A DNA stretch of 52,063 nucleotides from a virus, in IMG/VR virus record IMGVR_UViG_3300046812_000338, positions 1 through 52,063 of that record. One strand, written 5' to 3'. The notes beneath the pieces are model-generated. The model did not search any database, had not been told where the DNA came from, and saw only the letters and a list, made by a program, of their open reading frames with translations. Below are positions 2,585 to 24,002 of the stretch, one piece after another; the stretch's first letter is position 1; the number at the start of each line of letters is the position of its first letter. The position numbers and the translations under genes were made by a program.

Positions 2585-2865
2585 CCGACGCCGCAAAGAT
2601 CGAGGGCCTGCGCCAGCTGCTCGCCCGCGATGGCGCCGTGACGTTCAAGGGCACCGGCGCCACGGTGCGCCGCGACCCCGGCTGGCACTCCGACCTGCTC
2701 GTCGACCGCTCCGACGGCTCGACCAGGCGCGTCAACGAATTCGCCCACGACCAGCTGGCCCAGGCGTATGCGATCGCCATCGCCGAGCCGGTCCCGCCGG
2801 CGCCCCCGCCGCAGGTCTTCAAGCCGACGCGCTCGCGCACCGACTTCGGCGAGTGCCCGTTTTGA
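2581..2865 (+). CDS. Small hypothetical protein (about 94 aa; start uncertain)
   Basis: The frame is open and GC3-rich from 2581, where CTG would overlap the previous stop as CTGA, the coupling geometry used throughout this genome with ATG or GTG. From CTG the product would begin (M)TDAAKIEGLRQLLARDG. The first conventional start is GTG at 2638, giving 75 aa. The core GTVRRDPGWHSDLLVDRSDGS-like stretch and the C-terminal proline-rich tail suggest a small beta domain. CTG initiation is an inference from spacing and codon bias. Confidence 0.55.
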   Translation: MTDAAKIEGLRQLLARDGAVTFKGTGATVRRDPGWHSDLLVDRSDGSTRRVNEFAHDQLAQAYAIAIAEPVPPAPPPQVFKPTRSRTDFGECPF

Positions 2866-2962
2866 AATGTATGCACGAACCTGAATAAGATTGCGGCGGG
2901 CCGGGAGGTCGCGGATCGCTTGCCGCCGCCGTCGCCTCCAGATGGGGCGCCCGGCCCAACCC

Positions 2963-2975
2963 TAGACTTGCCGGC
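2963..2975 (+). promoter_or_regulatory. Leaderless promoter: TAGACT, 7 bases, ATG
   Basis: TAGACT at 2963-2968 is followed by seven bases and the ATG of the protease gene at 2976. No -35 resembling TTGACA is seen 17-18 bases upstream. The geometry predicts a transcript starting at or next to the A of the ATG. No Shine-Dalgarno is present. Confidence 0.6.
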
Positions 2976-4613: not shown

Positions 4614-5390
4614 ATGTCGCTGGAGAGAGTAGCCCGCTACAAGCCGGGCGAGAACATTACGGTCGCCGCCACGGTGGCCGGCGGGATCATCGTCGCGGGC
4701 CGCTTCATCGCGGTCACGGGGATCAACAAACGGCGCGGCTACGACGGCGCCCACTGCTCCGCCGGCGACGAGCGCCCCTTCGGCGTCTCCCAGCGCTCCA
4801 CGATGGACCCCGCCACCGAGGACGTCAACTCGACCGAACTGCTGACCGAGTGCGTCCGCTCCAACGCGGTCGCCCGCGTCGAGGCCGGCGAGGAAATCGA
4901 CGCGACCCCCCCGGTCGACGTCGCGGTCGGTGCCGGCGGCAAAGCCATCGTCGCCGACGTCGCAGTCGCAGCCTTCCTGAAAACCGGCGTCGTCGGCAAC
5001 AACAACGCGATCACCTGGACGGCCCGCGAGGCCGGGGTCGATGGCGACAACCTGACGATCACCCTTCAGAACACCGGCAAAGAAAAAGCCCTTTCGGTCG
5101 ACGTCAACGGCAACGACATCGTCGTCACCCTGGCGACCAACGGGGTCGGCGCCGGCGAAGTCACTTCCACCGCGGCGCAGGTCGAGGCCGCAGTCCTGGC
5201 GCACGACACCGCCTCCCAGCTGGTCACGACCGCCAACACGGCCGGATCGTCCGGCGCGGGCGTCGTCGTCGCAGTCGCGAAAACGAACCTCGCGGGCGGC
5301 GAAGAAGGAACCGCAGGCGCGGTCGCGGTCGGCAAAGCCCTCACGTCGGCGGCAGCGGCCGGCGACATCATCGAGGTCGACCTCTACTAG
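4614..5390 (+). CDS. Capsid decoration (DUF2190-like) protein with inserted beta domain (258 aa)
   Basis: The N-terminal 85 residues (YKPGENITVAATVAGGIIVAG onward) and the last 25 (VAVGKALTSAAAAGDIIEV) resemble the small capsid cement proteins of the DUF2190/RecA-like-named family. Between them lies an insert at about residues 125-230 of the type NAITWTAREAG, LATNGVGAG, AAQVEAAVLAH, LVTTANTAG, LAGGEEG, a beta-rich phage surface domain seen in many sheath and head proteins. It starts at the base after the protease stop and precedes the capsid gene by 14 bases. The likely role is stabilising the head and presenting an exposed domain. Confidence 0.7.
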   Translation: MSLERVARYKPGENITVAATVAGGIIVAGRFIAVTGINKRRGYDGAHCSAGDERPFGVSQRSTMDPATEDVNSTELLTECVRSNAVARVEAGEEIDATPPVDVAVGAGGKAIVADVAVAAFLKTGVVGNNNAITWTAREAGVDGDNLTITLQNTGKEKALSVDVNGNDIVVTLATNGVGAGEVTSTAAQVEAAVLAHDTASQLVTTANTAGSSGAGVVVAVAKTNLAGGEEGTAGAVAVGKALTSAAAAGDIIEVDLY

Positions 5391-5403
5391 GCCACTGAAT
5401 CTC

Positions 5404-6438
5404 ATGAAGACCAACCACACAGACCTCCAGGCCCTTCTCGACAACGTCGCCCCCGGTGCGCGCCTGACCGCAGACGGCCGCATCCCGGCGATGTCCGGCG
5501 GCGCAGGCCCCCAGAACCCGGTCGCCCAGCCTCTCGGCGGGGCCACGGTTCAGGGCACAACCGTCACCGTCGACACCTACGTCAACCCGCCGACGAAAAT
5601 CCCGGCGATCATCCGGGAGCTTGTCGGGGCCGACGCCGGGTACTTCATCGAGCGCGTCTTCGGCACGATCGGCAGCCCCATCCAGGGCGGCGCCGTGATC
5701 GTCGAAGAGACGTTCCCCGAGGACTTCTTCCTTCCGGCCGACAGCGTCCCCGCGCCTCGCGCGCCGGGCGCCGAGGCACCGCGTCTCGCCAGCACCCGCC
5801 ACGAACCGAAAGTGAAACGCCCCGAGTCGTGGGCCGGGTCGATCGAGGTCACCGACGAGGCCAAACAGCGCAACAACGTCCTCGCCGTGCGGCGCCAGTT
5901 CACGCAGGCGGCCAACAGCTTCTCCCAGATCATCCAGCAGCGCGGCATCGAAGTGCTGATCGAGGCGATCGAAGCATGGGAACGGACCCTGGAAGCGAAA
6001 ACCGTCTGGCAGGCAACGCCGGGCGCGGGCCTCTTCAACGTCGACCCGAAAACGCTGCCGGCCTTCGACATCGCCCGGGTCCTCAAACAGTTCCGTGACG
6101 ACAAAGTCGGCATCCGTCCCGACACGGCGATCATGAACACCGAAGAACTTCTCTTCCTGGAGACGATCTACACCGGGGTCGGCGCGGTGCCGACGCTGGA
6201 GTCGGCCTTCTCTCGCCAGGGGATCACCGACATCATCGGCTCCCCGCTCGTCGACGAGGGCGACGTGATCTTCGCGAAGGCCGGCGCCCCGGGCGCGATC
6301 GGCTGGGAGCTTCCGATGTCCCAGGAGATGGTCCGCGAGGGCGTCCGCAAAACCGACGTCTACGTCCTGGAGTGCCGCCCCGTCTTCGCGGCCTTCGACG
6401 CCTCGGCCGTCCTGATGCTCCAGGGCACGGACAAATAG
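5404..6438 (+). CDS. Major capsid protein (344 aa)
   Basis: Length, position after the scaffold and decoration genes, and segments such as YFIERVFGTIGSPIQGGAVIVEETFPEDFFLPAD and the P-domain-like IIQQRGIEVLIEAIEAWERTL fit an HK97-fold major capsid protein. No long N-terminal delta domain is present, consistent with the separate scaffold. The ATG at 5404 is chosen because the product then begins at a helical segment just before the extended arm. A strong hairpin terminator follows 24 bases after the stop, so head genes end a transcription unit here. Confidence 0.8.
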   Translation: MKTNHTDLQALLDNVAPGARLTADGRIPAMSGGAGPQNPVAQPLGGATVQGTTVTVDTYVNPPTKIPAIIRELVGADAGYFIERVFGTIGSPIQGGAVIVEETFPEDFFLPADSVPAPRAPGAEAPRLASTRHEPKVKRPESWAGSIEVTDEAKQRNNVLAVRRQFTQAANSFSQIIQQRGIEVLIEAIEAWERTLEAKTVWQATPGAGLFNVDPKTLPAFDIARVLKQFRDDKVGIRPDTAIMNTEELLFLETIYTGVGAVPTLESAFSRQGITDIIGSPLVDEGDVIFAKAGAPGAIGWELPMSQEMVREGVRKTDVYVLECRPVFAAFDASAVLMLQGTDK

Positions 6439-7824: not shown

Positions 7825-8501
7825 GCCTCTGGGGGCCGGTCACCGATGGCGCTGACGTCGAGGCGGCACTCGTCGCGCACCTGCGCCACTGGATGCCCGC
7901 TGCGGCCCAGTACGTGCGCCGCGCGAAGGACCCCGACAACACGCTCTGGCCCGCCGGCATCGCCGACATCCGCGAATACGGCGTCTCCCACGCCGACGCC
8001 GCGGCGCAGAAGTGGCCCGAGGACCAGCTGCCGATGCTGATCGCCCAGTCGCCGGGCATGGAAGGCGATCCGTTCACCGAAGAGGAGGGCAACGTCTCGG
8101 CGGTCTACGGGGTCGTGCTGTCGGCGATCGCGTCCTCGGTGACGATCGCCGACGCGAAGGCGCTTGCGCGCCTGTACGCCTCGGCGGCGCGCCTGGCGAT
8201 CATCCAGCACCCGAGCCTCGACGCCGGCACCGGGGTCGCTTTCGCCTCCCACGTCGCCCAGGGCGCCGAGCGAAACGGGCAGGTCCGCCGCGGCATCGAA
8301 GGCGAGCGAAACCTGATGGTCTGCTCGGTGCCCTACCTGATCGAAGTGCCGACGATCATGGTCGCCGAGGGCGGCCCGCGCGAGGTCCCCGACGACATCG
8401 AAGTCGAACCGCCCGAAGACCCGATCGTGAAGGAAGGCGGCGCCTCTGCGACCGTCGACGCGCTGACCGAGTCCGGCTTCTTCGACGCCAAACCTGAATA
8501 G
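7821..8501 (+). CDS. Tail terminator-like protein (226 aa)
   Basis: GTG at 7821 overlaps the previous stop. The protein precedes the sheath gene, where contractile phages encode the tail terminator (gp37/gpU-like). Segments such as VEAALVAHLRHWMPAAAQYV, YGVVLSAIASSVTIADAKALARLYASAARLAIIQHPSLD and a long alternating C-terminal region fit a terminator fold that begins with a helix. The C-terminal acidic tail is longer than usual. Assignment rests mainly on synteny. Confidence 0.55.
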   Translation: MSLWGPVTDGADVEAALVAHLRHWMPAAAQYVRRAKDPDNTLWPAGIADIREYGVSHADAAAQKWPEDQLPMLIAQSPGMEGDPFTEEEGNVSAVYGVVLSAIASSVTIADAKALARLYASAARLAIIQHPSLDAGTGVAFASHVAQGAERNGQVRRGIEGERNLMVCSVPYLIEVPTIMVAEGGPREVPDDIEVEPPEDPIVKEGGASATVDALTESGFFDAKPE

Positions 8502-8531: not shown

Positions 8532-9980
8532 ATGGGTCGCGTGACGTCTGCCCCAGGCCATGTAGTTACGATCGGTGATCGCGCCTCTTCGCCGCTGGCC
8601 GCCGCCTCGACCTCCAACGGCTTCCTCGTCGGTGTCTGCGAAAAAGGCCCGACCGATCGGCCGATCAAGGCGATCAGCCTGGCCGACGCCGTCGACTCGA
8701 TCGGCGAACGGGTAGCGACCAACCCCTACCTCTACGACGCCGTCGACTGCGCCTTCCGCGAGGGCGCCTCGGTCGTCTACATCGGCCGCGCCGTGGGCGC
8801 CGAATCCGCCACGGCGACCCACACCGCCGTCGACGCCGGCGGCAAAATCTCTTACCACGTCAACGCCAAGTCCCCCGGCGCCTGGGGCAACAACATCGAA
8901 GTCGCGATCACGCTCACCGCCGGCTCGGTCGTGCTGGTCGTCAAACTGAACGGCACGACCGTCGAGACGTCGCCGTCGCTGGGCACGAACGCCGAAGTGA
9001 TCGAATGGGGCAAATCCTCAGAATTCGTCACGATCACCGCCGGCGAAGCCGAAGCCCTCGACGCGAAAACCCAGGCCGTCAAACTCGAAAACGGCAAAGA
9101 CGACATCGCCGGCGTCGGCACCGGCCAGATCGAAGCGGCGCTGAACGTCTTGACCGCCGACCTCGGCCCCGGCCAGGTCGCCGCCCCGGGCTTCACTTCC
9201 GAAGCGATCCACAAAGCTCTGCTGGTCCACTGCTCTGCCAACAACCGGCGCGGCCTGCTCGACGACCCGATCGAATCGACCTCGGGCGAACTCGTCGGCC
9301 ACGCCACGGCGCTGCGCGGCCCCAACGCTCGCTTCGGCTGCCTGCTCGGGTCCTGGGCCTACGTGCCGGGGGTCAGCCTCGGCACCGAACGCAAAGTGCC
9401 CTACTCCGGGATTCAGATGGGCCTGATCGCCCGCGCCGAGGCCGAAGGCAACAACCCCAACCGCGCCGCCGCCGGCCCGCGCGGCAAGTCGCGCTACGCG
9501 ACCGGCCTGGTCAAACTCTTCACCGACGCCCAGCGCGGCGAACTCGACGCCGCCGGCGTGATCGCCTCGATCCTGGTCCGCGGCATCGTCACCACCTACG
9601 GCAACGTCACCCTCGTCAACCAGACGACCGAACCCAACTGGAAGTCCTTCTCGGCCTCCCGGCTGGTCATGGCCGTCGCCGCGAAGGCCGGCCAGATTCT
9701 GGAGTCCTACGACTTCGAGCAGATCGACGGCCACGGCTACGTCTTCAAGCAGCTGCAAGGCGACCTCTCGGGCGGGGCCTGCATGCCCTTCTACCTCGAA
9801 AACGCCCTCTACGGCACCGATCCCGCCGAAGCGTTCTTCGTCAACACCGGCCCCGACGTCAACACCCCGACCTCGATTTCCAACGAAGAAATCAAGGCCC
9901 AGATCGGGTTGCGCGTCAGCCCCACCGCGTCCTTCCTCGAAGTCGAGGTTGTCAAAGTGCCGACCACGGAAAGCCTGTAG
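8532..9980 (+). CDS. Contractile tail sheath protein (482 aa)
   Basis: The N-terminus (MGRVTSAPGHVVTIGDRASSPLAAASTSNGF) and the C-terminal third (RGIVTTYGNVTLVNQT, FSASRLVMAVAAKAGQILESYDFEQIDG, LRVSPTASFLEVEVVKV) match the tail sheath family, with the conserved C-terminal domain that builds the sheath mesh. An inserted domain lies at about residues 95-205. It is followed by the tube gene after three bases. A TATGCT box lies just upstream; GTG at 8541 is an alternative start. This gene defines the particle as myovirus-like. Confidence 0.85.
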   Translation: MGRVTSAPGHVVTIGDRASSPLAAASTSNGFLVGVCEKGPTDRPIKAISLADAVDSIGERVATNPYLYDAVDCAFREGASVVYIGRAVGAESATATHTAVDAGGKISYHVNAKSPGAWGNNIEVAITLTAGSVVLVVKLNGTTVETSPSLGTNAEVIEWGKSSEFVTITAGEAEALDAKTQAVKLENGKDDIAGVGTGQIEAALNVLTADLGPGQVAAPGFTSEAIHKALLVHCSANNRRGLLDDPIESTSGELVGHATALRGPNARFGCLLGSWAYVPGVSLGTERKVPYSGIQMGLIARAEAEGNNPNRAAAGPRGKSRYATGLVKLFTDAQRGELDAAGVIASILVRGIVTTYGNVTLVNQTTEPNWKSFSASRLVMAVAAKAGQILESYDFEQIDGHGYVFKQLQGDLSGGACMPFYLENALYGTDPAEAFFVNTGPDVNTPTSISNEEIKAQIGLRVSPTASFLEVEVVKVPTTESL

Positions 9981-9983
9981 GCC

Positions 9984-10391
9984 ATGCGTACCGACCAAGA
10001 GCGAATCAGCGTCCGCGTCGACGACATCGACTGCGGGGTATGGCAGACCTTCTCGGGCGGCGGCGTGACGGCCGAAGACACGAAGAACCGCCCCGGCGGG
10101 ATGGGTCCCGAGGAAAGCCTCGGCGGCCCGGTCAGCCGCGACGCCTTCTCGATCGCCCGGCTCTACCGCCTGGACCGCGATCACCCACTCTTCAAGCGCC
10201 TCGACGGCCTGGCCGGCTCCGGTCGCGTCGTCGCCACGCGCCAGAAACTGAATAAAGACCGCACCCCCAACGGGGACCCGATCACCTACACGGGTACCCT
10301 CATCAAAGTGACGCCTCCCGATCACGATTCCAACGCATCGGGCCGGGCGGAACTCACCCTCGAAGTCTCGGCCGACGAGCCGATCAGCTAG
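9984..10391 (+). CDS. Tail tube protein (135 aa)
   Basis: Directly follows the sheath, the universal order in contractile phages. The size and beta-rich pattern (ISVRVDDIDCGVWQTFSGG, GRVVATRQKLNKD, YTGTLIKVTPP, AELTLEVSAD) fit a tube monomer of the gpFII/gp19 type. The N-terminus after MRTDQER enters the first tube strand directly, supporting the ATG at 9984. Confidence 0.75.
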   Translation: MRTDQERISVRVDDIDCGVWQTFSGGGVTAEDTKNRPGGMGPEESLGGPVSRDAFSIARLYRLDRDHPLFKRLDGLAGSGRVVATRQKLNKDRTPNGDPITYTGTLIKVTPPDHDSNASGRAELTLEVSADEPIS

Positions 10392-11334: not shown

Positions 11335-13911
11335 ATGACCGACGCATCCCTGATCGCGCTGCGCATGCGGCTCACCGGCGGCAAAGAGGTCGTGGCCGAA
11401 ACCGACGCCGTCACCGCCTCCCAGCGGCGCCTTCGCGACGAGCAGGGCAAATTCGTCAAGGGGTCCCAGCAGTCCACGAAGGCGACCGAGAAGCAGGCCG
11501 CCGCCCAGGCGAAACTGGCGAAGACCGCGACCTCCCTGCGCACCGTCGGGAGCGCGATGACGAAGTACGTCTCTCTGCCGCTGGCCGCGATCGGCGTCGC
11601 CTCGGGCGTCATGGCGCTCGACTTCGACCGCTCGATGCGCAACGTCAACTCGATCGCCCAGCTGCCCGAAAAGCGCTTCATCAGCCTCAAAAAACAGGTC
11701 CTCGACCTGGCGGGGCCGACCGCCCAGGCGCCGAAGACGCTCGCCGAAGGGCTATACGACCTCGTCTCCAGCGGCTTCACGGCCGACGAATCCATCCGCA
11801 TCCTGCACAAATCGGCGCTCGCTGCCTCGGCCGGCCTGACCACGACCGAGGTGTCGACGAAAGCCGTCGCCGCCTCCCTGAACGCCTACCACCTGCCCGC
11901 CCAGAAGGCCGGCTGGGTGTCCGACACCCTCTTTGAAACCGTCAACCGCGGCGTCCTGACCTTCGACGAACTCGCCCGCTCGATCGGCGACGTGCTGCCC
12001 TTCGCCTCGCAGCTGAACGTGCCGCTCAATCAGGTCGGCGCGGCGCTGTCGACGATGACGAAGGAGGGCCTGTCCTCGGCCGAGGCGGTCACCCGCACCA
12101 AAAATGTGCTGGTCACCCTGATTAAACCGGGCAAAGCGCTCACCGAAACGCTGGAAGGGATGGGGGTCAGCGGCGAAGAACTGGTCAAAAAGAAAGGGCT
12201 GCAAGGCGCCCTCGAAGCGATCGTCGGCACGACCAAAGGCGGCAAGGCGGAAATCGCCGAACTGTTCCCCAACATCCGCGCCCTGGGCGGCGTCCTCGCG
12301 CTGGTCGGCAAGAACGCCGGCTTCGCTCAGAAGGACCTGGCCGCCTTCAAAGACACCACCGGCGCCACCAACAAGGTCCTGAACGAACAGGAAAAATCAT
12401 TCGGCTTCAAGCTGCAACGCAGCTGGGCAGAACTCCAGAAAGTGCTGATCGAATTGGGCGAAGACCTGCTGCCGATCGTCGTGCCCTTCGTCCTCGAACT
12501 CGCCCACGCCGGCGCCTCGGTGGTGCAGACCTTCGCCGACCTCCCCGGCCCGCTCCAGAAAACGGCGTTGGGCATCGCCACCCTCGCCGCCCTCGCCGGC
12601 CCGATGATCCTCTTCGCCTCCAGCACGATCAACGTCGCGAAAGCCCTCGGCCTGCTGTCGACGGTGTCGGGGGGCGGGCTGCTGTCGGGGCGTGGGAAAA
12701 CCATGAAAGGGCTGCTGGCGCGCGGGGCGGTCGGGATCGGCGGCACCCTCGCGGCCCAGAGCGCCGGCGGCGCGATCGGCGGGGACCTCGGCAACTGGGT
12801 CAGCAGCGCCGGCACGGGCGCGGCGACCGGCTTCGCCCTCGGCGGCCCGATGGGGGCGGCGGTCGGCGGGGCGGTCGGCGGCGTCGCGGCGGCCTACTCG
12901 AAAGTCTCGGGCGAGCTTAAGACGGTCAGCTTCGAGCAGCGGCGGCTGGCCGGCTCAAGCAAGGACGTCGTGAACTTCATGCACCGCCAGCGCTCGGCCT
13001 CGACGGGCCTGACCGTCGCCGAACACCGCGTGGCGGGCGCGCTCAAACGGCGCAAGACCGCGACCGACCAGCTGAAATCTGCCCAGCGCCACCTGTCGGC
13101 GGTCGTCAGCGAGTACGGGCCCCACTCGCGCGCCGCCATCCACGCCGAAGCCCGGCTCACCGGCCTGACCAACCAGCACCGCCAGGCGATCAAACGCCTC
13201 CAGAGCGCCGAACGGCTGCGCGGCGTCGCCCTGTCGGCCTACAAAACGGCCACCAACGTCACCGTCCTCGCCGAGCGCCACCGGATCACCGTCCTCACCG
13301 AACTGCGCGACCGGCAGGCCAAGCTCTACACGTCGTCTAAGCAGGCGAATCCGCAGTCAGAAAAGACGCGCAACCTGGCAAACAACCTGCTCGGCACCGA
13401 AAAGAACCTCTCGAAGGCGGTCCAGCAGCACTCCCAGACGCTCGGCGACGCGGCGGCCAAAGGTGGGCAGGCATACGCGAAGTTCCTCCAGCGCGCAAAC
13501 CAGGAATCGGTGCGCGCCGGCGGCTCGATGAAAGCCCTGAACCTGAAGGCCGAACGGCTGACCACGACCCTGAAGGGCCTGGCCGAACTCGAAGTCACCG
13601 TGCCCCACGTCGAAGCCCACGGCGGTCGACGTCACCCCGGCCACAACGCCGCGGGCACGAATTGGTGGCGCGGCGGGGAAACCTACCTGGCCGAGCGCGG
13701 CCCCGAGCTTGTCAACCTGCCCCGCGGCTCGCGCGTTCTCCCGGCCCCTGCGACCCGCAAGGCGCTGGGCGACCTACCAGCCGCGCGGATTGCTTCAGAG
13801 GCGGGAGGCGGCGGCCAGCGGCTCCTGGCACCCATCATCGTCAAGGTCGGCCGTAAAGTGCTGGCCGAAGTCCAGGCCGAAGTCGAGGCCGACGCAAAAG
13901 CGAGGCTCTGA
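11335..13911 (+). CDS. Tape measure protein (858 aa)
   Basis: The longest gene, directly downstream of the chaperones. The N-terminal region contains a TMP-repeat-type helical core with FDRSMRNVNSIAQ, VSTKAVAASLNAYHL and DVLPFASQLNVPLNQVGAALSTM, as in the phage tail tape measure family. A Gly/Ala-rich stretch at about 455-520 (IGGTLAAQSAGGAIGG) can form membrane-active helices. Long coiled-coil follows. The C-terminus has the GGETYLAERGPELVNLPRGSRVLP motif common to tape measures. Its length sets tail length. Confidence 0.85.
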   Translation: MTDASLIALRMRLTGGKEVVAETDAVTASQRRLRDEQGKFVKGSQQSTKATEKQAAAQAKLAKTATSLRTVGSAMTKYVSLPLAAIGVASGVMALDFDRSMRNVNSIAQLPEKRFISLKKQVLDLAGPTAQAPKTLAEGLYDLVSSGFTADESIRILHKSALAASAGLTTTEVSTKAVAASLNAYHLPAQKAGWVSDTLFETVNRGVLTFDELARSIGDVLPFASQLNVPLNQVGAALSTMTKEGLSSAEAVTRTKNVLVTLIKPGKALTETLEGMGVSGEELVKKKGLQGALEAIVGTTKGGKAEIAELFPNIRALGGVLALVGKNAGFAQKDLAAFKDTTGATNKVLNEQEKSFGFKLQRSWAELQKVLIELGEDLLPIVVPFVLELAHAGASVVQTFADLPGPLQKTALGIATLAALAGPMILFASSTINVAKALGLLSTVSGGGLLSGRGKTMKGLLARGAVGIGGTLAAQSAGGAIGGDLGNWVSSAGTGAATGFALGGPMGAAVGGAVGGVAAAYSKVSGELKTVSFEQRRLAGSSKDVVNFMHRQRSASTGLTVAEHRVAGALKRRKTATDQLKSAQRHLSAVVSEYGPHSRAAIHAEARLTGLTNQHRQAIKRLQSAERLRGVALSAYKTATNVTVLAERHRITVLTELRDRQAKLYTSSKQANPQSEKTRNLANNLLGTEKNLSKAVQQHSQTLGDAAAKGGQAYAKFLQRANQESVRAGGSMKALNLKAERLTTTLKGLAELEVTVPHVEAHGGRRHPGHNAAGTNWWRGGETYLAERGPELVNLPRGSRVLPAPATRKALGDLPAARIASEAGGGGQRLLAPIIVKVGRKVLAEVQAEVEADAKARL

Positions 13912-14614: not shown

Positions 14615-16468
14615 GTGCCGAAAGCAGCCGTCGCGGCGCGCCAGCCGGTGAAGGTCGAACGGATCGTGCCCGGGGTCCATTCGGTGCAGGGGATCAACTC
14701 CAACATCGAGGACATCGTCTTGCGCGGGCAGCCGATGATCGCCCGCATCGGCCCCGTGATCGTCGAAGCCACCCTGGTCCGCAAAATCCTCGGCGCCTCA
14801 GAACTCACCCTGACGGTCCTCGACCCCGCTCCCCGTCGGCGGCTACTGCGCTCGGCTCTGCTCGAAGAAGCCCACGAAGTGGAAATCGACGGGTTGAAGT
14901 GGCGCCTGGTCAAGGTGTCGAGCGAAGGGCAGACCTCGCCCCTGGTCCTCACCTACGAGCCGCTGATCGTCTACCTGCTGAAGCGCCTGAAGGGGCCGAA
15001 CAAAGCCTTCCGCGACAACATGACGCGGGCCGAGTTCGCCGAGGCGAGGGCCTTTGAAGCCAGGCCCCGCCCGCGCTTCATCGCCCCCGAACTGCACGTC
15101 GTGCAGGCGATCGCGTCGTCGACGGCCGGCGAAGAAGCCCAGGAAGAAGCCGAAAAGACGCGCGGCAAGGGCGTCGGCCAACACGCCAACCTGAAGATCA
15201 ACAGCCACCCGGCGACCAAAGCCCAGGCCGACATCATCGACCGGATGCTGCGCCAGGCCGAGGCGATGAAAGCGAACACGAAGGTCATGGAATCGCTGGT
15301 CCTGGCGGTGATCGACGAGTCCAACGTCGGGACGCTGTCGTCGAATCTGCTGCAAGAGGAACCGTTCACCAACCCCAACGACAACAACGCCAGCCCCGAG
15401 GACTCTGCGAAGGGCTACCTGGAAGGCTGGAATGGCGGCGTGGGGGCGATCGAGTACAACCGCGCCCACCCAGGCGACTCACCGGCCCAGATCGCGACCA
15501 ACGTGCAGGCCAACGCCGCCGGCGCCGCGCCGTATGAACGCTTCAACGCCGAAGGGCACGACTGGGTGGTCGCCTACGGGGGCGGCGCCGAGGTCAAGAC
15601 CACCGACTTCAAGCGCTACGCCTTCCAACAGACGGCCAAAGAGTCGAATTGGCACTGCATGGTGCGCCTGGCGACCGAAGTGAAATGGCGCTGCTTTGAG
15701 TCGGCCAGCTGGATTTACTTCCTCGACGACCCGACCCTGCTGCGCAGCCACCGGCGGATGCAGGTTTCCGACATCGAGCCGGGGATCATCGACCTCACCT
15801 TCGACTACGACGTCGGCAAGGAAGTCACGGAAGTCACGGTCGAAGCGCTCGCGAAGGTCTGGGCCGCGCCGCCCGGCTCGATCGCCGCCGTCGATCGCTG
15901 CGGGCCTGCCGACGGCCTCTACCTGGTCGCCCAGATCGAATCCAAGCCCTCGTCGCGAAAGGGCCTCGTCAACGTCACCCTGCGCAAGGAAGTCACCCCG
16001 CTCCCCGAGCCGTCCCCGAAGGCATCGACGTCGACGACGTCCTTCGCCAGCGGCGCGAGCGGGGCACCGGCGGCCGTGCAGTCGATGATCGCGGCGATCG
16101 ACGCCTTCGACGCGGCCAAGACCAAATACCTCTGGGGCGGCGGGCACGGCGGGTCCTTCGCCTCCCCGACCGACCGCGTCGACTGCTCGGGCTTCTGGTC
16201 GGCGGTCCTCCACGCCGGCGGCTACCTGAACACGCCGCTGACCTCGGCGCCGCTCGGCGAAGCCCTGGAGCCGGGCGTCGGGGAATGGGTGACGATCTAC
16301 TCCGACGGTCAGCACGTCCTCGGCAAAATCAAATACCCCGATGGCAACTGGCGCTGGGCCGAGACGTCCTCGTCTAACCCCGAAGGCGGCCCGGGCTGGG
16401 TGCCCGACGCCGTCGGCGAAGAAGGCGCCCGCTCCCACCCCAACGCCTCCCACCCGAAGGGCCTGTAG
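14615..16468 (+). CDS. Baseplate hub (gp27/gpD-like) with C-terminal NlpC/P60 peptidase (617 aa)
   Basis: Residues 1-460 form a hub-type protein (IARIGPVIVEATLVRKILGASELTLTVLDP; later LLRSHRRMQVSDIEPGIIDLTFDYD). Residues about 488-617 are an NlpC/P60-like peptidase: YLWGGGHGGSF, catalytic cysteine C524 in VDCSGFWS, and histidine H567 in DGQHVLG. The domain would cut peptide crosslinks when the tail tip meets the wall. The GTG start at 14615 follows the previous stop by two bases. Fusion of peptidase to hub is seen directly; the identity of the third catalytic residue is unclear. Confidence 0.75.
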   Translation: MPKAAVAARQPVKVERIVPGVHSVQGINSNIEDIVLRGQPMIARIGPVIVEATLVRKILGASELTLTVLDPAPRRRLLRSALLEEAHEVEIDGLKWRLVKVSSEGQTSPLVLTYEPLIVYLLKRLKGPNKAFRDNMTRAEFAEARAFEARPRPRFIAPELHVVQAIASSTAGEEAQEEAEKTRGKGVGQHANLKINSHPATKAQADIIDRMLRQAEAMKANTKVMESLVLAVIDESNVGTLSSNLLQEEPFTNPNDNNASPEDSAKGYLEGWNGGVGAIEYNRAHPGDSPAQIATNVQANAAGAAPYERFNAEGHDWVVAYGGGAEVKTTDFKRYAFQQTAKESNWHCMVRLATEVKWRCFESASWIYFLDDPTLLRSHRRMQVSDIEPGIIDLTFDYDVGKEVTEVTVEALAKVWAAPPGSIAAVDRCGPADGLYLVAQIESKPSSRKGLVNVTLRKEVTPLPEPSPKASTSTTSFASGASGAPAAVQSMIAAIDAFDAAKTKYLWGGGHGGSFASPTDRVDCSGFWSAVLHAGGYLNTPLTSAPLGEALEPGVGEWVTIYSDGQHVLGKIKYPDGNWRWAETSSSNPEGGPGWVPDAVGEEGARSHPNASHPKGL

Positions 16469-17065
16469 ATGGCAACGCTCGCCGACTACGAACCGCCCGC
16501 AGGCTCGCCGGCCCAGCACGGCTTCGTCTCCACGCCGCCGGACAAAATCGGCGATCCGTTCACGGTCACGGTCCCCGACTTCGACGAACAGCACGTCTTC
16601 CAGATTCGCTACTGGCCCCTGCGCGGCGCCACGCTGCCGGCGGTGGGCGACGAAGTCCTGGTCATCAGCGACGACAAAGCCGAGCCGTGGGTCGCGGCGT
16701 GGTGGCCGGCGGCTGGCGACGACCCCGAGGGTGGGGGGCCTGACACGGTGACTATCTTCTCCCTTGTGGTTTCCTCGCAAACGCCGCTCGCCAAAGAAGC
16801 CCCCTGGGTAAGCGCCTGGGTGCCGGCGTCCTTCTGGGAGTCGCGGATCGTCGGCTCCCTCTTCGCCGACCAGAAAGGCGTCCTGCACATCGAGCAGAGC
16901 GCCGACGGCGTCAACGTCGACGTCGATACGAGCTACGAAATCGAAGCCAACGACGGCAAAGGCTTCAGCGAGTCGCGGGTCGCGAAATTCTGGCGGGTGC
17001 GCTTCGTCAACGGCGCGGTCGCCCAGGGCGTCTTCCGTATCGCGGCTGAAGTGAGGGGCGGCTAA
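16469..17065 (+). CDS. OB-fold baseplate spike/gpV-like protein (198 aa)
   Basis: Begins at the base after the hub stop. Residues 30-85 contain the OB-fold pattern of spike and baseplate V proteins (PFTVTVPDFDEQHVFQIRYWPLRGATLPAVGDEVLVISDD). The C-terminal half (residues 90-198) is a separate beta-sandwich-like domain with FWESRIVGSLFADQKGVLHIEQS, which resembles solvent-exposed fiber or binding domains. The likely role is a central or peripheral spike element. Its stop overlaps the tailspike start as TAATG. Confidence 0.6.
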   Translation: MATLADYEPPAGSPAQHGFVSTPPDKIGDPFTVTVPDFDEQHVFQIRYWPLRGATLPAVGDEVLVISDDKAEPWVAAWWPAAGDDPEGGGPDTVTIFSLVVSSQTPLAKEAPWVSAWVPASFWESRIVGSLFADQKGVLHIEQSADGVNVDVDTSYEIEANDGKGFSESRVAKFWRVRFVNGAVAQGVFRIAAEVRGG

Positions 17066-19284
17066 TGGCCGAGGACGTTCTCGGCGATAGCGGCGACGTC
17101 CTCGGTGGGGGCAGCGGCGGTGGCGGCGGGGTAGCGCTCGGCGCCGCGGGCGAAGCCGGCAAGGCGCTCGTCGCCACCGACCCGACGACGACCGACGCTC
17201 GCACTCCCAAAGCCCATCAGGCCTCCCACCACACCGGCGGCACCGACCCGCTCACGCCCGCCAACATCGGCGCGGCCACCACGGGGGAACTCGCCGCGAA
17301 GGCCGGCAAAGCCGAAGCTGGCACCGAGGCGACCGCGCCGACCTACGGACGCGAATCCACGATCGCCGCGCCCCACCTGCGCGACCTGGTCACAATCCTC
17401 GACTTCGCCGAAGCCAAACACGGTGACGGCGTCGAAGACGACACGGCGATCTTCAAGACCGCGATGACCAAACTGGAAGAAGTCGGCCGCTCGGTCTTCG
17501 TCGTCACTCCGCACCGCAAGGGTGGCGGCGTCGCCTTCTGGACGGTCGGCAAAAGCGAAGCCGGCGGGGGCGAAAAATCGGTCTGCGTCCGCATCCCCTC
17601 GAACACGACCATCTCGGCCTACAGCGCGAAATTCCAGGCGCTCAAAGAATCCGGTGGGGTCGAAATGAAATGGAAGCTCTTTGGCACCACCACGCTGAAC
17701 CTGCCCACCGAAGGGATCACGGTCGAAAACGTCCGCTGGTTCGGCGGCAGCTTCATCGGCACCGGCAAAGAGCCAGAACAGCAGGGGTGCCTCGGCTTCG
17801 TGCGCTGCCGCGACGTGTGTGTGCGCGACCTGAGGGCGTCGAAATGGAGTAAGGAACCGACCGGCGCGGGCGGCGGGGTCCTGGATTTCGGCGACAACCA
17901 GCGCTGCCGTATCGAAAGCTGCACGATGACGGAATGCTCCAAAAAAGGGGGTATCAACGTCATCCAGGTCACCGATTCCTACGGCGGCGGCTCCAACGAA
18001 CGGCCCTACACCGAAGTCCTGGTCACGAACTGCATCGTCACGGGCAGCGGCGCCTCGTCCATCTGCGTCGGGATGGGGTCGGGGAGCAAATACTCCAACA
18101 CCACGCCGGTCCGGGTCATCATCGCCGACAACATCGGGGAATCGAGCGGCTGGGCGCCGATCACGGTCGAGGTCGGAGGCAACCCGCCGGCCGAAGGCAA
18201 CTTCCACCAGATCAACATCACCGGCAACCACGCGAAAAGCACGTCAGGGAGCTACGCGATCGACGTCCTGGTCGACTCCACGCCGATCATCGAAAACGCC
18301 TCGACCATCGAAAACGTGCTGATTACCGACAACCAGTGCGAATCGGCGGCCTGGGGCATCCACTCGATGGGCACCGGCACCATCTGCGAAGGCAACATCG
18401 TCAAGGCGAAAGAAAAAGGCATCTACTTCCAGGCGCCGACCAACACCTTCCTCGAACACATGCACATCCGCGGCGGCTCGATCCAGGTCAAAGAAGGCTT
18501 CGCGGTGTACATGAACAAATGCAAAAAAGGCAGCTGCGACACCGACATGAGCTACGAAGCCGGCGGCTCGGGCGAATCCGCGGCCCTCTACTTGCAGACC
18601 TGCACTCGCATCGACGTCGAGTCGAAGATTTACAACGCCCTCGGCGCCGGCATCGAGATTGAAAGCGGCGAAGGCTCCATCTCGATCCTTCCCGGCACCC
18701 GCATCTACAACCCGTCGACCAACGGCACCAAGCCCGGCATCGAAGTCCGCGGCGCCCCGTCCGGCCCGATCTGGGTCCTAGGCGCTCACTGTCGAGACGA
18801 CCGCGGCGGCGAAGCGAAAATGAAATACGGCCTCCAGAACCTCTCGGCCGAAACCAAGGTCTTCTCCTACCGCAACTTCTACCTGGGCTGGACCTCGGCG
18901 GCGACCAACGGCACACTCGCCGGCCAGAAGGACGACACGGTCGACGAAACCGGCGTCCTGGTCGGCAAAATGATCTGGAAAGCCGTCGAAGAAGTGAACG
19001 CCAAACTGGAAGCGTCCTTCTCGACGATTGAATACGCCGTCGAGAACGGAACCGTCTACCTGCGCGGGTCGATGAAATGCAAAGCTGGGGAAGAAGTCGC
19101 GGCCAACGCCGTGCTGTTCAAGATTCCCGTGGGTGGCCGCCCCGCCTCGACCCGCCTGGTTACCGAGCCGACCACCGAAGCCGTCCGGGCGGGGAAGGTC
19201 GAAGCATCGGGCGCCGTCACCTGCCTGAACGCCCTGAAAACGGGCATCAGCATCGGCTTCGACGGCGTCTTCTTCGTCATCTAG
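17065..19284 (+). CDS. Tailspike with right-handed beta-helix (pectate-lyase-like fold, 739 aa)
   Basis: The N-terminus is Gly-rich, followed by a fiber attachment motif (HQASHHTGGTDPLTPANIGA). A beta-helix starts at about residue 110, with the hallmark DGVEDDTAIFKTAMTKL that opens many polysaccharide-degrading spikes, then coil after coil rich in Asn and Thr (VTNCIVTGSGAS, NITGNHAKSTSG, ENVLITDNQCES). The last 100 residues form a beta C-terminal domain. It probably recognises or degrades a surface polysaccharide; catalytic residues cannot be named by eye. Confidence 0.75.
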   Translation: MAEDVLGDSGDVLGGGSGGGGGVALGAAGEAGKALVATDPTTTDARTPKAHQASHHTGGTDPLTPANIGAATTGELAAKAGKAEAGTEATAPTYGRESTIAAPHLRDLVTILDFAEAKHGDGVEDDTAIFKTAMTKLEEVGRSVFVVTPHRKGGGVAFWTVGKSEAGGGEKSVCVRIPSNTTISAYSAKFQALKESGGVEMKWKLFGTTTLNLPTEGITVENVRWFGGSFIGTGKEPEQQGCLGFVRCRDVCVRDLRASKWSKEPTGAGGGVLDFGDNQRCRIESCTMTECSKKGGINVIQVTDSYGGGSNERPYTEVLVTNCIVTGSGASSICVGMGSGSKYSNTTPVRVIIADNIGESSGWAPITVEVGGNPPAEGNFHQINITGNHAKSTSGSYAIDVLVDSTPIIENASTIENVLITDNQCESAAWGIHSMGTGTICEGNIVKAKEKGIYFQAPTNTFLEHMHIRGGSIQVKEGFAVYMNKCKKGSCDTDMSYEAGGSGESAALYLQTCTRIDVESKIYNALGAGIEIESGEGSISILPGTRIYNPSTNGTKPGIEVRGAPSGPIWVLGAHCRDDRGGEAKMKYGLQNLSAETKVFSYRNFYLGWTSAATNGTLAGQKDDTVDETGVLVGKMIWKAVEEVNAKLEASFSTIEYAVENGTVYLRGSMKCKAGEEVAANAVLFKIPVGGRPASTRLVTEPTTEAVRAGKVEASGAVTCLNALKTGISIGFDGVFFVI

Positions 19285-19306: not shown

Positions 19307-19711
19307 GTGCCTAAGGGGCGCGGCGCTCGGCGCAAGACGGCGAAGAGGCGAAATGCCAAAGCCGCTCGGGCGCGTCAGGAAAAGGAACTCGACTTCACCC
19401 AGCCCGGGGCCACCGAGGACGTCATCCGCGAGCGCAACCGCCGCATGCGCCAGGCCACCCACGACGCTGCCGCCGAGGACGGGATCGTCACCGGGACGCT
19501 GCGAGTCGCCGCGATGGACGTGGTCGAGGACCTTCAGATGGCCTACGGCCTCGAAGGCGAGGAGCATCGGGTCGCGATCATCGAGTACCTGGTCGGCGCG
19601 ATGGGCGAGTTGATCCACGCCTTCCCCGAGACACCCGAATTCCTGCCCGGCTACCTCCAGTGGCGCGACGAAAGCAGGGCGCGGGTAACCGGGCCGGTCG
19701 AGGCCGAGTAA
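19307..19711 (+). CDS. Hypothetical protein in tail module (134 aa)
   Basis: GTG at 19307 with AAGGA about 15 bases upstream. The first 35 residues are extremely basic (PKGRGARRKTAKRRNAKAARARQ); the rest is helical (DVVEDLQMAYGLEGEEHRVAIIEYLVGAMGELIHAF). The stop overlaps the next start as TAATG. It lies between two receptor-binding genes and may be an assembly chaperone for them, but that is only positional inference. Confidence 0.6.
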   Translation: MPKGRGARRKTAKRRNAKAARARQEKELDFTQPGATEDVIRERNRRMRQATHDAAAEDGIVTGTLRVAAMDVVEDLQMAYGLEGEEHRVAIIEYLVGAMGELIHAFPETPEFLPGYLQWRDESRARVTGPVEAE

Positions 19712-21465
19712 TGGAGCATGTAGTCAACGGCGACTTCGAGGGGGCCTTCGTCGCCGGCGTCCCCGCCAGCTGGGAAAAGATCGGCACCCAGACGATCGCC
19801 GAAGAGAAAGTCGACGTCCACGCCGGCACGAAGGCGGTCAAAGGCACGACCACTGGCCCCGGCTGCGGGATCAAACAGACGATGGCGGCCTTCGCAGCCA
19901 ACGAGCGCTGCCACCTGAGCGTCTGGCAGCACGTCGACGCCGCCGCGGTGGCCGAAAACTACCGCGTCTGCGCCGAACTCCAGATCGTCGGCGGCGAAAT
20001 GGGCGGTCTGTTCCTCAACTTCAGCACCGGCCAGTGGGAAGCGGAAACCCTCGAAAACGAGAAAAACCTCCAGCTGCTCACGCGCCCGATCAGCACCCGC
20101 TACGTGCAGCTGGCCTACGAATTCTCCGCGCCGCCGATCGGGGCCACGATCCGCCTGGTCTTGAAGCGCGTCGACGGCAACCCGTTCTCATTCTGGTTCG
20201 ACACCGCCTCGGTGGCGACGGTCGCGGTGCCGGCGCGCCCGACCTCGATCGACTGGGGCGAGTACGCCCACCACGTCCCCAACGACCCCGCGGTCCTCGA
20301 CGGGATCATCAGCGAGTTTGGGCGCCCCGACTACATCGGCATGTACCGGGAATGGGGCAAGCCGATCCTGACCCCGGCCGACATCAGGACCCTCGACGCC
20401 CGCAAAATCGTGCCGACCATCTCCTGGGAAACCAACGAAGAAACGCACAAACCGAGCCTGGCCGAAATCGCCGCGGGCGCCGGCGACGCCTACATCGACG
20501 AACAGGCCGCGATCATCGCCGCCTACGGCAAGCCGGTCATCATCCGCCCCTTCTGGGAGATGAACCTGTCGTGGATGTTCGGGGAAAGGACCCCGCCCGA
20601 CAGCTACATCGCCGGCTGGCGCTACATCGTCGAACGCTTCAAAGCCAAAGGCGCCACCAACGCGCTCTGGTTTTGGTGCCCCTCGATCGACTACGACCGC
20701 GGCGAGGGCACGAAGTTTGAAACGATCCACGACTTCTTCCCCTACTTCCCCGGCGACGCCTACGTCGATTTCGTGGGCGCCGATGGCTACTCGTCGGCCT
20801 TCTACAACGAAGAACTCAAAAAAGAGGGCTGGGCGACGATCGAAGAAATCTTCTTCTACACCTACCACTGCCTGATGGGCCTGTCGACCAAGCCGTTCAT
20901 CATCGGCGAGACGGGCGTGGCAGAGGAAGGCGGGGACAAGCCGCACTGGTTCCGCGAAGGGCTGCTGGAGACGATCCCCGAAGTCTTCCCGCGGATCGAC
21001 GCGATCTTCTACTTCAACCGCCACAACGAAGGCGAACTCGAATGGGAGATAGATAGCTCCACGGCCTCCCACGAAGCCTTCAAAGAAGCCGTCCTCGACG
21101 GCCTCTACGTCAACGAACCAGTCGCCGTCACGACCGCCTCGACGATCCGTGCCGGCTTCGGCGGGCGCGTCCCGAAGCTGCGCATACCGCTGCGCCTGGA
21201 AAACGGGCGCCTGGGCATCTGCGAGCAGGACTCCCAGGAGAACGTGGCGGCCTGCGTGTACGCGATCCTCGCCTTCGAGCGCGGCTCGCGCATCGAGGAC
21301 ATCGACTTCGGCGTCGAGGACCCGACCTTCGACACGATGCCGATCGACGTCGACGAATGGCTGGAGCAGATCAGCCGCTATGAGCCTCGGGCCAACGTGC
21401 AGACCAGCCAGGAAGTCGGCGACCTGATCGGGGCGGTCCTGGTCAACGTAGGGTTGGGGCCATGA
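19711..21465 (+). CDS. GH26-like glycosidase fused to a gp25-like baseplate wedge protein (584 aa)
   Basis: Residues 1-165 look like a CBM-type jelly roll (VNGDFEGAFVAGVPASWEKIG). Residues 170-465 match glycoside hydrolase family 26 (beta-mannanase type): acid/base E283 in RPFWEMN and nucleophile E400 in IIGETG, with LWFWCPSIDY between. Residues about 485-584 resemble T4 gp25/gpW wedge proteins (VAACVYAILAFERGSRIEDIDFGVEDP). The following gpJ-like gene overlaps its stop by ATGA, the standard W-J order, so this gene occupies the W position. The enzyme is thus built into the baseplate. The substrate is inferred only from family. Confidence 0.75.
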   Translation: MEHVVNGDFEGAFVAGVPASWEKIGTQTIAEEKVDVHAGTKAVKGTTTGPGCGIKQTMAAFAANERCHLSVWQHVDAAAVAENYRVCAELQIVGGEMGGLFLNFSTGQWEAETLENEKNLQLLTRPISTRYVQLAYEFSAPPIGATIRLVLKRVDGNPFSFWFDTASVATVAVPARPTSIDWGEYAHHVPNDPAVLDGIISEFGRPDYIGMYREWGKPILTPADIRTLDARKIVPTISWETNEETHKPSLAEIAAGAGDAYIDEQAAIIAAYGKPVIIRPFWEMNLSWMFGERTPPDSYIAGWRYIVERFKAKGATNALWFWCPSIDYDRGEGTKFETIHDFFPYFPGDAYVDFVGADGYSSAFYNEELKKEGWATIEEIFFYTYHCLMGLSTKPFIIGETGVAEEGGDKPHWFREGLLETIPEVFPRIDAIFYFNRHNEGELEWEIDSSTASHEAFKEAVLDGLYVNEPVAVTTASTIRAGFGGRVPKLRIPLRLENGRLGICEQDSQENVAACVYAILAFERGSRIEDIDFGVEDPTFDTMPIDVDEWLEQISRYEPRANVQTSQEVGDLIGAVLVNVGLGP

Positions 21466-22625
21466 CGAAGTTCGCCAGCCTGCCGATCGAAGCCACGCCG
21501 CAGGCGATGCTCGAAGAAGCGGTCGCCGAAATGGAGGCCCAGCTCGAAGGCTGGGATTCCAACCTCGGCGAGTACGAGATGATCCTCTTGCAGGCGATCG
21601 TCTGGCGCCTGGTCTGGCCCTTCATTCAGCTGGCCGCCCGCGTCGACGCCACGATCTTCAACGAGTGGGGCCGCCAGATCGTCAACGTGGTCCCCCAGGA
21701 AGCCCAGAAAGCGACCGTGCTGTCGACCTGGACGGTGCGCGACGCCCTCGGCTACACGATCAAAGCCGGCACCCAGGTCGACATCGCCCGCTCCGGTGAC
21801 GAGCGGGTCGGCTTCATCGTCGTCGCCGACGTCGAAATCCCGCCCGGCTCGACCTCCACCAAAGTCGGCGAGGTCATCCTCGAAGCCACCGTGGCGGGCC
21901 TCGACGGCAACGGGGTCGGAGAAGGCGCCGGCATCCTGATCGACGCCCTCGGCTACGTCGAAAGGATCGACATCGTCGGCCTGTCTGACAACGGCGTCGA
22001 CGCCGAGGACCCCGAACACTTCCTCGGGCGCCTGGCCGAAACGATGCAGACCTTCATCGAAGGCGTCGTGGTCGCCAACGACGTCGCGATCGTCTCGCGC
22101 AACGTGCCCGGCATCGGGCGCGTCACGGTCCTCGACAACTACAACGCCGAAACCGAAGAAGACGAACAGGAGAAGACGACCACCGTGGCGGTCACGGGCG
22201 ACCTGGGCGGCGTGGCGCCCATCTGGGCGAAGGAAGCCCTGGAGGCCGTCCTCGCCGAAAAACGGGAGGTCAACTACATCTTCTTCGTCGTCGACGCCGA
22301 CTACAACCTGATCGACGTCGAAGCCGAAGTCGTGCCCTCCCAGGGCTACTCGAAAGCCGCCGCCGCCGCCAACGCGAAAGCCGCGATCGAAGCCCTCCTG
22401 AACCCGCTCACGGCCTTCCAGGACCCACCCGGTGACGACGCGACCTGGGCCAACACGACCACCCTGCGCTTCCAGGACCTCGTCACCGTCGTCAACGATG
22501 CCGAGGGCGTCGATCACTACTCGCTGCTGAAATGGCGCAAGGGCGTCGAAGCGATGGCCGCGGCCGACATCGCCCTGGTCGGGGCGGCGCCGCTGCCCAA
22601 ACCAGACACGATCACGGTCACCTAG
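21462..22625 (+). CDS. Baseplate J-like protein (gp47/gpJ family, 387 aa)
   Basis: ATGA overlap with the previous gene. Contains the gpJ pattern: helical N-terminus (MLEEAVAEMEAQLEGWDSNLGEYEMILLQAIVWRLVW), GYTIKAGTQVDI, EVILEATVAGLDGNGVGEG, then ETMQTFIEGVVVANDVAIVSRNVPGIGRVTVLDN and an acidic insert before the C-terminal domain. It is a wedge component that links hub and sheath. Length and synteny with gpW-like and gpI-like neighbours support the call. Confidence 0.85.
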   Translation: MTKFASLPIEATPQAMLEEAVAEMEAQLEGWDSNLGEYEMILLQAIVWRLVWPFIQLAARVDATIFNEWGRQIVNVVPQEAQKATVLSTWTVRDALGYTIKAGTQVDIARSGDERVGFIVVADVEIPPGSTSTKVGEVILEATVAGLDGNGVGEGAGILIDALGYVERIDIVGLSDNGVDAEDPEHFLGRLAETMQTFIEGVVVANDVAIVSRNVPGIGRVTVLDNYNAETEEDEQEKTTTVAVTGDLGGVAPIWAKEALEAVLAEKREVNYIFFVVDADYNLIDVEAEVVPSQGYSKAAAAANAKAAIEALLNPLTAFQDPPGDDATWANTTTLRFQDLVTVVNDAEGVDHYSLLKWRKGVEAMAAADIALVGAAPLPKPDTITVT

Positions 22626-22628
22626 CCC

Positions 22629-23261
22629 ATGCCGCGACCGGAAGCCTCGCCAGCTGCCGAGGAACTGTACGAAGCGCTCGCGCCTGCCTTCACCCAGGGC
22701 GACGAAGCCAACGACTGGGCGAGCCTCAAGATGTGCATGGCGATCGTCACCGGCCGGCTGGACCTCCTGCACACCTACCTGATCGACGACATTACGAACC
22801 TGCCGGCGTGGGCGGTCGTCTTCGACCCCGAACGCTGCCCCGCCGAGGCGCTGCCCTACCTGGCCCAGTTCTCGGGCGCGATCCTCACCCCCGAGATGGA
22901 AGAAGCCGCCCGGCGCGCGGCCGTCCAGACCCCCGAGGCCCTGAGCCGCGGGCGCGTGGAATCCATCGAAGCCGTCATCAAGCGCCGGCTGACGGGCACG
23001 AAAGCGGTCGTCTTGACCGAGCGCTACACCGGCTCGGCGTGGCGCCTGCGCCTGGAAACGATCGAAGCCGAGACGCCTGACCCCGCCGGCATCATCGCCG
23101 ACCTGATCCGCTTCCAGAAGCCGATCGGCATCGTCCTCTTCTTCAACACCCGCGTCGCCTGGACCTGGGGCGAGGCGAAAGTGTCGGTCGAATTCCCCAC
23201 CTGGGCCGACGTCAAAGCCGGGTTCAAAACGTGGTTTGCCTACCGCACGTTTGAACCGTAG
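22629..23261 (+). CDS. Baseplate/tail protein gpI-like (210 aa)
   Basis: Follows the gpJ-like gene by three bases, the W-J-I order of P2-like baseplates. The motifs LPAWAVVFDPERCPAEALPYLAQFSGAIL and EDAARRAAV-like helices, with RGRVESIEAVIKRRLTGTKAVVLTERY, fit the phage tail protein I family. It is the last gene of the tail operon; a long inverted repeat follows before the convergent lysis-related genes. Confidence 0.75.
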   Translation: MPRPEASPAAEELYEALAPAFTQGDEANDWASLKMCMAIVTGRLDLLHTYLIDDITNLPAWAVVFDPERCPAEALPYLAQFSGAILTPEMEEAARRAAVQTPEALSRGRVESIEAVIKRRLTGTKAVVLTERYTGSAWRLRLETIEAETPDPAGIIADLIRFQKPIGIVLFFNTRVAWTWGEAKVSVEFPTWADVKAGFKTWFAYRTFEP

Positions 23262-23402: not shown

Positions 23403-24002
23403 TCAGCCTTGACAGACCCACTCGCCCGACCTGCCGACCACGTCCATCCACGCCGCCGCGAGGCTCTGCCACTTCGCCGACGTTATGTCGCGGCCCCCGT
23501 AGGGCGTCGTTTCCCAGGTCGAGGGGAGGAACTGGAACCACGATTCAGCGCCCGAGGCGTTGTGGGCGTAGCGGTTGCCGGTCGACTCGCAGTACATGAC
23601 GGCGAGCATCCAGCCTTCGTCGGCCCCGTAGGTGAGCGCGGCCCCGTGGATGCAGTCGGTGATCGGGCCGGCGTCGGTGCATCTGCCCCACCGCAGGCGA
23701 TAGTGCCGGCGCTGGTAGTAGGCGGCGCGGTCCCGGCGCCAGGTCGCCTTCATCGCCTTGCGGTGGCTGGCGGTCGGGGCGCAGCCGATCCGGGCGTGAG
23801 CGGCGGCGATCGTCGAGGCGGGTGGCGCACCGCGGCGCCAGCGCGCCGGGCGCCAAACTCGACCGCTGAAGACCTCGAAGGAACCCAGCAGACATCGGGC
23901 TTCCGGGCGAGTATGGTGGTGCGTTGTGTTCTCTGATGCGGCGGGCGCGGCCAGCACGGCAAATGCAAGGGCCGCGACCGCCGCCAGGGCGAGTCGCTTC
24001 AC
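23403..24002 (-). CDS. Secreted Rpf/SLT-like transglycosylase (199 aa)
   Basis: The GTG start at 24002 has a good Shine-Dalgarno (CAGGAGA). Residues 1-23 are a signal peptide (KRLALAAVAALAFAVLAAPAAS). The C-terminal 70 residues carry the transglycosylase pattern: E139 in YCESTGNRYAHNASGA, then SWFQFLPSTW. The middle is basic, with several Cys that could form disulfides outside the cell. It would cleave glycan strands in the periplasm or wall after Sec export. It lies on the minus strand with two small genes, apart from the plus-strand lysis genes. Its role could be lysis, spread through biofilm or wall remodelling. Confidence 0.7.
   Translation of the reverse strand: MKRLALAAVAALAFAVLAAPAASENTTHHHTRPEARCLLGSFEVFSGRVWRPARWRRGAPPASTIAAAHARIGCAPTASHRKAMKATWRRDRAAYYQRRHYRLRWGRCTDAGPITDCIHGAALTYGADEGWMLAVMYCESTGNRYAHNASGAESWFQFLPSTWETTPYGGRDITSAKWQSLAAAWMDVVGRSGEWVCQG

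Follow-up and report, generated by a model that had tools for sequence, protein, structure and literature searches.

The gene at positions 19711–21465 (+) of the window, i.e. the whole stretch of 52,063 nucleotides of viral DNA (a contig from IMG/VR) that was analyzed, encodes in one uninterrupted open frame a glycoside hydrolase domain of family GH26 followed by a C-terminal domain of the gp25/W type. It is likely that the product is a virion enzyme held at the wedge/sheath-initiator position of the baseplate, in about six copies, where it would trim a host-surface glycan during adsorption. The location in the virion, the copy number, the activity, its timing and the class of substrate are what we infer from the domains, the gene order and the known homologs described below.

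The fusion gene and its neighbours

The fusion gene runs from ATG to TGA and codes for 584 amino acids. A preliminary description of the same DNA had read here a single frame in which a GH26 domain with both catalytic glutamates is joined to a gp25/W-like C-terminus and directly followed by a gpJ-like gene. All these points were upheld, with neither a missed stop codon nor an internal start. From the N-terminus, the parts are an N-terminal domain (residues 1–174; 19711–20232 (+)), the GH26 domain (residues about 175–467; 20233–21111 (+)), a linker of ~19 residues (468–486; 21112–21168 (+)) and the gp25/W-like sheath-initiator domain (residues 487–584; 21169–21462 (+)). A GAGG-like ribosome site lies upstream of the ATG. 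The start of the gene overlaps the stop of a 134-aa gene (19307–19711 (+)) as TAATG and its stop overlaps the start of the J-like gene as ATGA, as in translationally coupled genes. The 134-aa gene gave weak database matches only, and no counterpart of it was found in contig L001, which carries a second copy of the fusion, or in the loci of the other relatives.

The order of the tail operon is as follows: tail sheath protein (8532–9980 (+); PHROG tail sheath, 2.7e-26), tail tube (9984–10391), tape measure (11335–13911), probable hub protein (14615–16468), a 198-aa protein (16469–17065 (+)), a 739-aa putative beta-helix spike or fibre (17065–19284 (+); weak Beta_helix and PHROG tail/virion matches), the 134-aa gene, the fusion, a baseplate J-like protein (gp6-like wedge; 21462–22625 (+); Pfam Baseplate_J, 3.4e-18; 88% identical in L001) and a Tail_P2_I-like protein (gp7-like wedge; 22629–23261 (+); Pfam, 7.1e-5). 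The presence of the sheath gene means that the tail is contractile, and the source is a soil-type, contractile-tailed, actinophage-like phage. The first ~85 aa of the 198-aa protein correspond to a conserved baseplate protein of small size, which is probably gpV-like with an OB-fold. The hub protein has near its C-terminus a DCSG motif, which is NlpC/P60-like though no family matched, and it is possibly a second cell-wall enzyme of the tail. Directly past the operon there is a transglycosylase-like (SLT) gene (23403–24002 (−)), which is resembled by an antisense gene at 8093–8659 of contig L009. Long antisense frames, such as that at 20188–21072 (−), were taken as chance products of high-GC DNA.

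Concerning residues 1–174, the preliminary description had seen in them a carbohydrate-binding-like domain. This was not confirmed, as no convincing match to them was found in Pfam, PHROG, NCBIfam or PDB. A single-sequence AF2 model of the whole protein (pLDDT 33.5) makes this part beta-rich, in an unreliable manner, and a carbohydrate-binding beta domain is possible there. The segment is 80% identical in L001, with a dN/dS of 0.36.

One polypeptide and its linker

Positions 5995–7749 of L001, an independent contig, contain the same fusion, with 85% amino acid and 88% nucleotide identity over the full length. Between residues 430 and 511, and thus throughout the linker, neither copy has an in-frame ATG, GTG or TTG; the first in-frame start past residue 430 is a GTG at residue 512 in the window and an ATG at residue 543 in L001. 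Since there is no start from residue 430 to the gp25 helix, the codons indicate that the gp25 domain cannot ordinarily be synthesized on its own. An internal start at V487, ahead of PKLR, was considered and rejected, its codon being GTC.

The comparison of both copies yielded dS values of 0.25–0.34 across all the parts of the fusion, and their similarity indicates that the parts have been inherited together. The dN/dS ratios were 0.26 for the GH26 domain, 0.21 for the gp25 domain and 0.99 for the fast-evolving linker. The amino acid identity was 53% in the linker and 92% in the gp25 domain, which is conserved as strongly as J. By this measure, the GH26 and gp25 domains are under purifying selection, and the sequence of the linker is unconstrained. 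A short, divergent and unconstrained linker fits a joint that is merely flexible, but it also fits one that is cleavable. The fusion could be made and then cut by a protease in or near the linker. The baseplate would receive the gp25 part, while the GH26 part would be set free, soluble or loosely bound, and would help spread or release. We consider such processing improbable, as no conserved cleavage motif is apparent in the two copies, the open frame has been kept in both lineages with no clear gain if the parts act separately, and the relatives with separate genes manage.

The GH26 domain

The Pfam family GH26 (PF02156) was matched by residues 270–365 with E = 3.9e-10 (40 bits, versus a cut-off of 20.2). 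In a phmmer search of PDB, residues 239–461 aligned with CtLic26A (endoglucanase H) with E = 3e-26 and ~35% identity over ~210 aa, while the match to mannanases was limited to ~90 residues, at 1e-6 or worse. Mannan was dropped as a candidate substrate because the closest solved structure is that of a lichenase, and even this one is too distant for a substrate to be assigned.

E283 (20557–20559 (+)), the predicted acid/base, and E400 (20908–20910 (+)), the predicted nucleophile, align with positions 109 and 222 of the CtLic26A chain, which we take to be its acid/base and nucleophile, respectively, the catalytic Glu pair of GH26 being presumably on strands 4 and 7. Scanning genomes with the acid/base region (40 aa) returned no relative, and a second scan provided 80 cellular GH26 loci. 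E400 is present in 80/80 of them and E283 in 78/80, while R279, N285 and W288, which the fusion also has, occur in 74/80, 74/80 and 72/80. The closest of the 80 loci, with 36% identity, belongs to an Actinomycetota MAG, and none of them has wedge or J genes close by.

A His before the acid/base is common in GH26 but does not define the family. At this position (282), the fusion has Trp, while the relatives have His in 67/80 and Trp in 5/80. As Trp also occurs in those five relatives, W282 does not, on this alignment, exclude the domain from GH26, and it could alter the activity. The conservation of the catalytic Glu pair and the motif residues argues that the domain is probably competent as an enzyme. 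The unusual W282 ahead of the acid/base would also be explained if the domain no longer cleaved and served the baseplate as a receptor module that binds glycan, in the manner of the CBM folds of Vp4 Gp119, which set a precedent for binding modules borne by wedges (PMC11406892). It seems nevertheless unlikely that activity has been lost from a domain that retains both catalytic Glu plus R279, N285 and W288 and that is under purifying selection.

The gp25-like C-terminal domain

The PHROG matches of the C-terminal domain were PHROG 5026/43. Searched alone, it matched Pfam GPW_gp25 with E = 0.021, which is below the curated cut-off, and the baseplate family PHROG 5026 with E = 0.0034; for the C-terminus of L001 alone the values were 0.0067 (Pfam GPW_gp25) and 3.6e-5 (PHROG). 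With this Pfam model, the Arthrobacter proteins annotated as wedges have only slightly better scores (0.0006–0.012). A family profile, from an alignment of 14 sequences built from relatives, was searched against the 177,635 sequences of PDB. The matches were almost wholly gp25 proteins, and at E<0.01 only gp25-type chains were found. The best match was 2ia7 (4.8e-6), T4 gp25 was matched at 2.3e-4, and further matches were 9gtp, 9qgl, 9rce, Pvc9, PA0617 and Afp9. Alignment to the Arthrobacter wedges with hhalign gave E = 1.2e-10. An AF2 model from the family alignment was of low confidence (pLDDT 58), and its top Foldseek matches were baseplate proteins of E217, T4, Bas63 and XM1, the best with E = 0.045. 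On the basis of the profiles and the synteny with the Arthrobacter wedge–J–tail order, and with tentative fold matches that agree, the C-terminal domain is assigned as a gp25/W-type sheath initiator.

Considering that the sequence taken alone does not reach the curated cut-off of GPW_gp25, the C-terminus could derive from gp25 and merely anchor the enzyme, with an unrecognised protein initiating the sheath. This is very improbable: the domain is conserved like J (with the 92% identity and dN/dS of 0.21 given above), its EPR motif (558–560) is intact, it is 84% identical to standalone wedges that occupy the same slot, and no second gp25-like place was found within the 52-kb record.

Relatives and origin of the fusion

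Contigs L009 and L010 have a standalone wedge of 102 aa, 83–84% identical to residues 487–584, followed by the same J, and standalone wedges (in L018 also of 102 aa) likewise precede the same J in L018 and L011. The Arthrobacter phages Hirko, Colucci and Abba have wedge, J and tail protein in the same order as the window, with related J and wedge, but their wedges are standalone (105–117 aa). In a tree of J proteins, the window and L001 (100/100) are nested inside a clade of standalone wedges. The GH26–gp25 fusion is carried by two close phages only, and scans of viral contigs with the GH26 domain alone and with the N-terminal domain found nothing beyond the L001 copy. As the close relatives carry gp25 as a separate 102-aa gene, the fusion is, by sequence comparison, a derived and uncommon design.

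A different fusion is present in contig L036, which according to the J tree requires a separate origin. Its gene (2823–5264) is located before the L036 J and codes for 813 aa, which comprise two Ig-like repeats (He_PIG), a central domain (about 290–610) and, at the C-terminus, a gp25 domain (35% identity, E=2e-11). Upstream of the gp25 domain, the nearest in-frame start is a GTG at a distance of 23 codons, with no evident ribosome site. Altogether, two events account for the 3 fused wedges among 27 distinct sequences from phages, and the other 24 start at the gp25 N-terminus. In these counts near-identical contigs were taken once, and, coming from pattern searches for wedge relatives, they do not represent an unbiased frequency.

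A survey of GPW_gp25 in 396 Actinomycetota genomes gave four open frames longer than 400 aa (704, 733, 546 and 433). The 704 frame was rejected as a fusion: a normal ATG stands 39 codons ahead of the core, and the frame is extended beyond it by chance in high-GC DNA. The locus of the 433 frame likewise offers a start, a GTG at 40 codons from the core. The readable gp25 loci of the survey start close to the core and include no fusion, the 546 (L138) and 733 frames being outside this reading. A metagenomic record and high-GC DNA that yields long chance open frames (e.g. in G108) could suggest that an assembly artefact or a read-through frame unites two genes in the window, but the probability of this is negligible and the idea is already largely refuted by the recurrence of the junction in an independent contig that differs at 12% of the nucleotides, by flanks that are both protein-like and under selection, and by the lack of a start for a separate gp25, the recurrence in L001 and the dN/dS pattern ruling out a chimeric assembly in practice.

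The gene for the ~85-aa baseplate protein upstream of the wedge is standalone in some relatives (88–91 aa), and elsewhere the C-terminus of the protein carries a fused module of fibre, collagen, beta-helix or pectate-lyase-like type. Its loci are 16469–17065 in the window, 2907–4886 in L010, 1651–4425 in L018, 4213–5568 in L011, 3491–4642 in L026 and 3552–4646 in L027. In L010, a GT4 glycosyltransferase gene (4903–5976; PHROG moron category) lies between spike and wedge. We infer a cargo slot between the ~85-aa gene and the wedge gene, the contents of which may fuse to either neighbour. Among the structural genes upstream of the wedge, L009 also has a GT4 glycosyltransferase (1772–2818), where the window has GH26.

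Proposed mechanism

The preferred reading, a virion enzyme on the wedge, supposes that the cargo slot, flanked by the spike/OB-like gene and the wedge gene, once contained a glycosidase gene, and that this was joined in frame to the wedge gene. The C-terminal domain, as the sole gp25-type sheath initiator, would dock on the J/I wedge in roughly one copy per wedge, which would give about six per baseplate. The flexible linker would join at the point where a standalone gp25 begins, and the GH26 and N-terminal accessory domains would be displayed beside the baseplate. At adsorption, the six enzymes would cut the host-surface glycan beneath the baseplate, making a path for spike and tube; this clearing is proposed because of the general role of virion glycosidases.

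The preliminary description had spoken of six or more copies. About six can fairly be expected by homology with XM1 gp15, a gp25 homolog of which each wedge has one copy, lying on the core bundle and holding the first sheath ring (PMC10457771). An N-terminal cargo on gp25 appears sterically credible, with the enzymes near where spikes attach elsewhere, in view of XM1 gp15, Milano BW1 and the PDB chain 9qgl_9A. The contact of XM1 gp15 with the sheath persists post-contraction, when only its first 22 residues lose the rigid-body fit (PMC10457771). In Milano BW1, also a gp25 homolog, N-terminal cysteines bond sheath and tail spike, Cys41 being bonded to the latter (PMC10811340), so the gp25 N-terminus can adjoin adsorption parts. 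Chain 9qgl_9A is a Photorhabdus gp25-type chain with ~118 residues N-terminal to the gp25 domain, in a structure with six such chains.

A wider proposal, which seems to us rather doubtful, is that gp25 is a general and repeatedly used cargo anchor and that sheath firing couples the cutting of the glycan mechanically to injection. The cargo would be the glycosidase in the window and the Ig-like array in L036, in actinophage-like viruses, and gp25 would stay on the first sheath ring through contraction, so that the position of the enzyme would shift upon firing. Gating of the enzyme action by contraction is speculation.

Comparison with known systems

Few parts of contractile injection systems are as conserved as gp25, which is usually regarded as purely structural. 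The fusion shares with T4 gp25, P2 gpW and XM1 gp15 (PF04965) the profile, the EPR motif, the position before gpJ and the contractile tail; these, however, are structural proteins of ~100–150 aa, to which the fusion adds a true hydrolase domain. An old claim that gp25 is a lysozyme was not upheld for HsiF, an ordinary gp25-like protein (PMC3352280). CtLic26A, a lichenase of Acetivibrio (Clostridium) thermocellum and the closest solved GH26, has in common with the fusion the catalytic Glu pair and the motif. The fusion differs in having Trp for the usual His before the acid/base and in being joined to a phage structural domain.

The view of the preliminary description that depolymerases are normally on spikes or fibers is fair, but polysaccharide-binding modules on a wedge are known: Vp4 Gp119, of a Bacillus phage, is a baseplate wedge 3 protein with CBM folds that binds cells (PMC11406892). 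Like the fusion, Gp119 has a carbohydrate-active module in a wedge protein, a module that a homologous wedge lacks; it differs in being another wedge subunit (A511 gp105-like) and in binding only, without a hydrolase. A511 gp102, i.e. BW1 (gp25) fused to BW4 (gp53) (PMC10811340), also contains a gp25 domain within a longer polypeptide, but both of its parts are structural and gp25 is N-terminal, while in the window fusion it is C-terminal. Tail-spike and fibre depolymerases and the T4 gp5 tail lysozyme are virion glycosidases acting at entry, as the fusion would be, yet they sit on trimeric spikes or fibres or on the hub, not on a sheath-initiator subunit.

Domain shuffling is common among tail proteins (PMC10684548). 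In the open-access literature, no case was found of a glycosidase on gp25 or on a wedge, or of GH26 in a phage tail. In kind, the fusion product would be a tail-associated glycosidase, and wedge CBMs and a gp25–wedge fusion are already known. If the preferred reading is true, the conserved baseplate core, beyond spikes and fibres, can bear adsorption chemistry, and the gp25 N-terminus is a natural site at which a folded cargo of ~470 residues is tolerated. The old 'gp25 lysozyme' annotation would then be nearly right in this fusion, with another enzyme.
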